Shown: positions 19,041 through 19,628 of the stretch, one piece after another
Numbering within the stretch: the stretch's first letter is position 1
Layout of the letters: the number at the start of each line of letters is the position of its first letter
DNA from: an uncultured Bacilli bacterium
GTDB taxonomy: Bacteria > Bacillota_I > Bacilli_A > RF39 > UBA660
DNA: 41,159 nucleotides
Assembly: GCA_944332025.1 (NCBI GenBank)
Contig: CALVJB010000001.1
Span: forward strand, 85,629-126,787
Direction of reading: 5' to 3'
The notes under the pieces: generated by a model
Database searches by the model: none
Told to the model about the DNA's origin: nothing
What the model saw: the letters and a program-made list of their open reading frames with translations, nothing else
Translations under genes and position numbers: made by a program

Positions 19041-19076
19041 TTGACATATATATATATATATATATATATATATAAT
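19041..19076 (+). promoter_or_regulatory. Promoter with (TA)14 tract between -35 and -10
   Basis: A perfect -35 TTGACA (19041-19046) runs directly into an alternating TA tract (19047-19074) that ends in TATAAT (19071-19076). The spacing to TATAAT is 24 bp, seven more than optimal. TATATA inside the tract at 16 or 18 bp could serve instead. Length changes of the tract would change promoter strength. Confidence 0.6.
19047..19074. repeat. (TA)14 simple sequence repeat
   Basis: Fourteen uninterrupted TA dinucleotides, the longest simple repeat noticed in the window, in a promoter. It is prone to slipped-strand length change. Confidence 0.9.
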
Positions 19077-19106
19077 GGTCTTAATTAGAAATCAAAGGAG
19101 GAAAAT

Positions 19107-19628
19107 ATGGATTTAAAAGAGATTTTAATGGATGAAAAAAGATATAGGGAAGATGCATTAGCAATGGAACAACCTGCTTTTGAGGAAGCAATGAGTAAAG
19201 TTAATGTGATTGAAGGTAAAGCTGATGTTAGTAACCTTACTCCACATGATAAGAATATGATTGATAATTACAATGTTGAAAGTTTTTTAAATTCTCTTTA
19301 TACTGACTACGTGAGAACTCGTTCAGGTTTAGAATACGATACTGAAGTTTTTCGCTTAGATCATCATTTACAAAATGTTGATCCAAGAGATATGATTGAT
19401 TTTAAAACTAAAGAGAAATTATTTCAAGCATTTGGACAAACTTATCCTATTGATGATAGATATGATACTTTAGAGCCTGCTGAGAAAAAAGAGTACTTGT
19501 TTTCTATATACGATAGAGCTTTAAGTGAAAAAGGTTATACCGATATAGATATTAAAGAAGCTTGTTCTAGTGTAGCACAAGAACTTTGGAATTCTGAACT
19601 TGTAAATTCAACTGGAAAAACTAGATAG
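19107..19628 (+). CDS. Hypothetical protein, downstream of the TA-tract promoter
   Basis: I do not recognise this 173-residue soluble, acidic protein. It has no membrane segment, signal or Cys cluster. Predicted mostly helical; it contains NLTPHDKNMIDNYNVESFLN, RLDHHLQNVDPRDM and SIYDRALSEKGYTDIDIKEA. A strong AAAGGAGG ribosome site lies eight bases upstream of the ATG. It is monocistronic: a TA-tract promoter lies before it and an intrinsic terminator after it. The possible phase-variable promoter is the main clue about its biology; the role is unknown. Confidence 0.8.
   Translation: MDLKEILMDEKRYREDALAMEQPAFEEAMSKVNVIEGKADVSNLTPHDKNMIDNYNVESFLNSLYTDYVRTRSGLEYDTEVFRLDHHLQNVDPRDMIDFKTKEKLFQAFGQTYPIDDRYDTLEPAEKKEYLFSIYDRALSEKGYTDIDIKEACSSVAQELWNSELVNSTGKTR

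Follow-up and report, generated by a model that had tools for sequence, protein, structure and literature searches.

A candidate phase-variable promoter with a (TA)14 spacer in front of an orphan gene of an uncultured Bacilli bacterium

Does a run of TA dinucleotides between two perfect promoter hexamers act as a length-dependent switch for the gene behind it? The question is raised by a locus in a 41,159-nucleotide stretch of DNA (hereafter the window) from an uncultured Bacilli bacterium. On the plus strand, a perfect −35 hexamer, TTGACA, lies at 19041-19046 and a perfect −10 hexamer, TATAAT, at 19071-19076. The (TA)14 tract between them (19047-19074) shares its final two units with the −10 hexamer and makes a spacer of 24 bp; TRF reports 14.5 perfect AT copies at 19046-19074. 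A ribosome binding site, AGGAGG (19096-19101, plus strand), is found 5 nt before the ATG at 19107. Direct re-reading of the sequence thus confirmed the promoter layout of the original prediction exactly, as well as its strong ribosome binding site. A simple repeat between −35 and −10, characteristic of promoters of the hifA/hifB type, is present here as the TA tract. We propose the site as a candidate phase-variable TA-spacer promoter of an orphan gene, similar to hifA/hifB, a tentative reading to which we give slightly less than an even chance. This reading, which would place the site in a known class, is plausible and mechanistically consistent.

The precedent invoked by the original prediction, a TA repeat in Haemophilus influenzae, is in print. 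Excerpts of PMC2651432, citing van Ham et al. 1993, describe fimbriae controlled by a (TA)9-11 tract within the promoter of hifA/hifB, and excerpts of PMC3899988 place the same tract between −10 and −35. As described there, and as at our site, a TA run forms the promoter spacer and 2-bp steps alter the distance between −35 and −10. The H. influenzae system has a shared divergent promoter, two fimbrial genes and demonstrated switching, whereas our site has one unidirectional promoter, a cytosolic-looking orphan and 14 units, and is known here from a single sequence copy. The excerpts of PMC3899988 also name porA of Neisseria meningitidis, with a poly-G tract in the −10/−35 spacer. There, too, the repeat lies inside the spacer and its length tunes transcription, but the steps are mononucleotide steps of 1 bp, the product is an outer-membrane protein and the effect is demonstrated. 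The promoter repeats of Mycoplasma hyorhinis and Bordetella pertussis, named in the same excerpts, differ from the TA tract in repeat type and in having surface products. In sabA, according to excerpts of PMC4081817, a T-tract tunes the gene through a change in DNA structure and not as a mere spacer. No promoter of this kind was recognized for this bacterial group in the titles and abstract beginnings of the papers listed by full-text searches, which does not prove its absence.

The gene behind the promoter (19107-19628, plus strand) has 173 codons and encodes an acidic protein (pI 4.6). Its codon score is 0.448 bits per codon in frame, whereas the two remaining forward frames score −0.605 and −0.393 and a base-shuffled version −0.20 (sd 0.09); gerQ scores 0.366 and a penicillin-binding-protein gene, which belonged to the training set of the score, 0.411. 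Because of its codon usage and ribosome binding site, the open reading frame is a real gene, and the unknown 173-residue protein of the original prediction is upheld as a coding sequence with no curated family match. Searches of Pfam, PHROGs and PADLOC assigned it no family, and the one NCBIfam match was far below threshold. Among the 35 genus genomes, the protein occurs in its own and is absent from the other 34. The family set (386 genomes) and the order set (385), which overlap, gave matches in two genomes each, the second being the same 20-bit match in both. This match (L047) lies over the end of a gene that we take to be MnmE-like, and it was dropped as a chance hit. Across the genus, family and order genomes, the locus is known from one copy, in its own genome. 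No homologues were found in the species-genome collection, viral contigs, phages or plasmids, and all PDB sequence matches had E values of at least 0.15. A structure model (mean pLDDT 54) was too poor to use and was dropped, together with the fold search based on it, which gave no match at E ≤ 0.001.

Products switched by promoter repeats are usually surface proteins, and the promoter tandem repeats of Mycoplasma hyorhinis and Bordetella pertussis are linked to phase-variable surface proteins. A surface-exposed product is usual for the hifA/hifB type, although not strictly defining. The 173-residue protein has no N-terminal hydrophobic or signal-like segment and is cytosolic-looking by sequence.

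The tract itself is exceptional for this genome. It is the sole place in the 1,589,922-base assembly with a TA run of at least 12 units, and runs of at least 9 units occur at one place each in 5 of the 35 genus genomes. TTGACA followed by at least 8 units is found in 2 of the 386 family genomes, namely the source genome and G397. With a first-order Markov model built from the window, 1.1e-7 runs of at least 14 units would be predicted in 1.59 Mb; since the tract is so far above this expectation, slippage is its most likely origin. Where AT follows a TA run, a perfect −10 arises nearly for nothing, but a perfect −35 directly 5′ of the run does not: the expectation for TTGAC is 9e-4 per site. 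The source genome has a MutS-type gene, so unusual repeat instability is not implied. By eye, a genus relative (L039, genome G028, at about 1490-1525) has a (TA)9 run in a TTGAAA...TATAAA arrangement with a spacer of about 17 bp; TA-rich spacers of normal length therefore exist in the genus.

To define the spacing that the source genome prefers, its contigs were matched for exact TTGACA-N(10-30)-TATAAT, with 50 matches listed; the listing is probably limited, and its counts are taken as lower bounds. Among the matches listed, the spacer is 17 bp in 24, 16 bp in 4 and 18 bp in 4, so that 32 of the 50 fall within 16-18 bp, and each other length has 1-3. Two of the 50 matches listed have a 24-bp spacer, the TA-tract promoter included. 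The 24-bp distance lies outside the cluster of perfect pairs listed and is a poor spacing, in line with the geometry argument of the original prediction. Ten units would give a spacer of 16 bp and 11 units one of 18 bp; a loss of three units, as considered in that prediction, would lead to 18 bp, a loss of four to 16 bp, both within the cluster. On geometry alone, some reachable unit numbers give 16-18 bp and others do not, as in promoters of the hifA/hifB type.

Tracts of the form TTGACA(TA)n with at least 9 units were found as 30 stretches in the species-genome collection. Fifteen have 9 units (one of these, L069, is cut by the locus end), ten have 10, four have 11 and one has 12. The 14 units of the source tract exceed all of these; that longer tracts are scarce in this set may simply reflect a general rarity of long tracts. 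Eight of the 30 end in TATAAT, with spacers of 14 bp (three), 16 bp (four) and 18 bp (one), and none longer. L070, identical to G397 (L080) over the 1783 bases compared, has a 16-bp spacer 5′ of a protein whose N-terminal segment is hydrophobic. An open reading frame lies downstream in 26 of the 30 stretches, with a hydrophobic N-terminus in 12 of the 26, compared with 39 of 155 control frames from the same loci; in this comparison the frames were chosen automatically (visibly wrongly for L064), some loci are related and the length rules differ between the two sets. These counts give a hint, and only a hint, that genes behind such tracts (L049-L076, several phyla) often have a hydrophobic or lipoprotein-like start. 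In viral contigs, where matches are very few, TTGACA precedes a TA tract in one stretch, against 0, 0 and 0 for scrambled hexamers. Two loci of a Candidatus Gallilactobacillus intestinavium MAG (L051 and L061) have TTGACA(TA)9 5′ of similar genes with signal-like starts.

The 173-codon gene is located between gerQ (PF09671; 18634-18987, plus strand), the conserved left border, and a LemA-like gene (PF04011 just under the cut-off; 19782-20312, plus strand), the conserved right border, whose −10 hexamer TATAAT at 19755-19760 is conserved in aligned relatives. gerQ was found in 31 of the 35 genus genomes, the source included; of these, the loci of 29 relatives (L006-L034), all but one, were compared. 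The gerQ-lemA interval measures 52-56 bp in 16 of them, 71-76 bp in three, 109 bp in one and 452-1437 bp in eight, and one locus stops before the second gene. The slot (window 18988-19760) is short in 20 of the 29 relatives' loci (52-109 bp) and gene-bearing in eight. As read from their open reading frames, seven of the eight long slots hold related sequence of another gene family, and a different gene is found in the eighth (L026). Judged from these loci, the interval is a variable slot. A remnant at 19694-19750 (plus strand), identified by alignment, corresponds to the 3′-terminal bases of the gene occupying the slot in L016 and L022 and to the sequence downstream of it, and is nearest to these two. 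In the simplest history, the 173-codon gene would have replaced most of a gene of the L016/L022 type. DNA matches of 82-90% between four genus genomes and the sequence preceding the tract had suggested a shared cassette border, but the matches were judged compositional. Three of the four were read (L082, L084 and L085); there the matched sequence falls within, or close to, the A+T-rich leader of a presumably SpoVB-like gene, without TTGACA(TA)n.

Transcription could also reach the gene by other routes. A pair scan identified a promoter-like pair at 19007-19035 (plus strand), in which TTGACA (19007-19012) is followed after 17 bp by TATTTT (19030-19035). The pair has 10 of 12 consensus matches and is independent of TA length; such pairs occur in the region near chance frequency (32 found, against 27.1, sd 5.0, in shuffles). 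Because no stable hairpin was found between gerQ and the TA tract, read-through from gerQ is possible. Given the upstream pair and this lack of a hairpin, transcription of the 173-codon gene may not need the TA promoter. At the other end, folding predicts a weak A+U-rich hairpin of 9 pairs followed by a T run (19648-19674, plus strand), a possible intrinsic terminator. Its energy is −6.8 kcal/mol, and 21 of 200 shuffles fold equally well or better. A consensus scan of 16400-20500, which required three G-C pairs, found no terminator. The "own terminator" of the original prediction therefore exists as a hairpin with a T run, but it is weak and was missed by the scan. In L083 and L089, the sequences matching the hairpin end appeared by eye to lie inside coding sequence and were dropped. 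With the terminator weak and missed by the scan, a rival pair upstream and no stable hairpin after gerQ, a switch acting on this protein only is not assured. The geometry and the precedent of a phase-variable promoter have stood; its sole control of the gene, and an effect limited to that gene, are weakened.

These features also fit a drifting microsatellite. A former promoter with a 16-18 bp spacer would have grown by slippage in front of a non-essential orphan gene, now transcribed weakly, from the upstream pair or by gerQ read-through, or hardly at all, with no selected switching. Such drift is favored by the orphan status of the gene and the turnover in its slot, by the upstream pair and the lack of a stable hairpin after gerQ, and by a unit number that exceeds both the working range and the 9-12 units of the other 30 stretches. 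Both hexamers are perfect, however, and the reading frame and ribosome binding site are intact, although a recent change would leave the same picture. We regard drift as a real possibility, if not a probable one.

The tract also offers hexamers of its own, as TATATA is available at 16 and 18 bp from TTGACA inside the assembled repeat. A working promoter could use these positions, so that expression would be buffered against the number of units. TTGACA-N-TATATA, though, has no 16-18 bp peak in the source genome, unlike TATAAT: the 16-18 bp range accounts for 1 of 28 among the matches listed, apparently one per start on the plus strand and so not exhaustive. The T at the last position of a −10 hexamer is important, and TATATA lacks it. 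Since the peak is missing, the inner hexamers are probably poor substitutes for TATAAT, and we consider buffering distinctly unlikely. Three near-identical stretches of 36 bases, each starting with TTGACA and ending in TATATA, are present in the genome (G000, contigs C17, C46 and C72), perhaps as parts of a repeated element. Because 24 bp lies outside the usual spacing of the genome and TATATA shows no peak, we expect the 14-unit form of a phase-variable promoter to be weak or off, and forms with 10 or 11 units to be on.

Length variation at a comparable tract is hinted at by two contig ends of Candidatus Gallilactobacillus intestinavium, one of the species that supplied the stretches above. 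The end of L048 and the start of L052 carry TTGACA(TA)n with 10 and 11 units; the 51 bases that precede the tract and the 19 that follow it are identical in both, and n alone differs. The pair suggests that the length of such a tract need not be uniform within one assembly or sample, although the difference may be slippage in sequencing or assembly; the contigs look as though assembly had stopped at a tract of mixed length. That the length of the source tract is itself such an artefact, with a true majority allele of another unit number, is very improbable: the length of long dinucleotide runs can be misjudged in short-read assembly, and these contig ends disagree by one unit, but our site is enclosed in a contig of 126,787 bases that continues unbroken across the tract.

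The mechanism that we propose for the candidate switch can be outlined as follows. In the housekeeping-sigma promoter of the 173-codon gene, a (TA)n microsatellite would form the spacer, and polymerase slippage would change n in 2-bp steps. At 14 units (24 bp), RNA polymerase would be unable to bind the perfect −35 and −10 together, leaving the promoter weak or off; at 11 units (18 bp) or 10 units (16 bp), both perfect hexamers would be in reach and the promoter strong. We infer both the off and the on states from sequence geometry. The switched gene would have been put recently into the variable gerQ-lemA slot, and single cells might turn it on by losing a few repeats. Against this reading stand the single copy in which the locus is known, the upstream pair, the possible gerQ read-through, the cytosolic-looking product and the presence of a MutS-type gene.

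It is also conceivable, although we think it unlikely, that a TA-spacer switch here acts on a lineage-specific, non-surface protein newly placed in a variable slot, and that promoters of the form TTGACA(TA)n, tuned by length and often 5′ of secreted proteins, make up an overlooked class that spans several phyla. If the length of the tract varies, the site would be a contingency promoter with a dinucleotide spacer in a small, low-G+C genome, and a featureless orphan protein would become worth testing under fluctuating selection.
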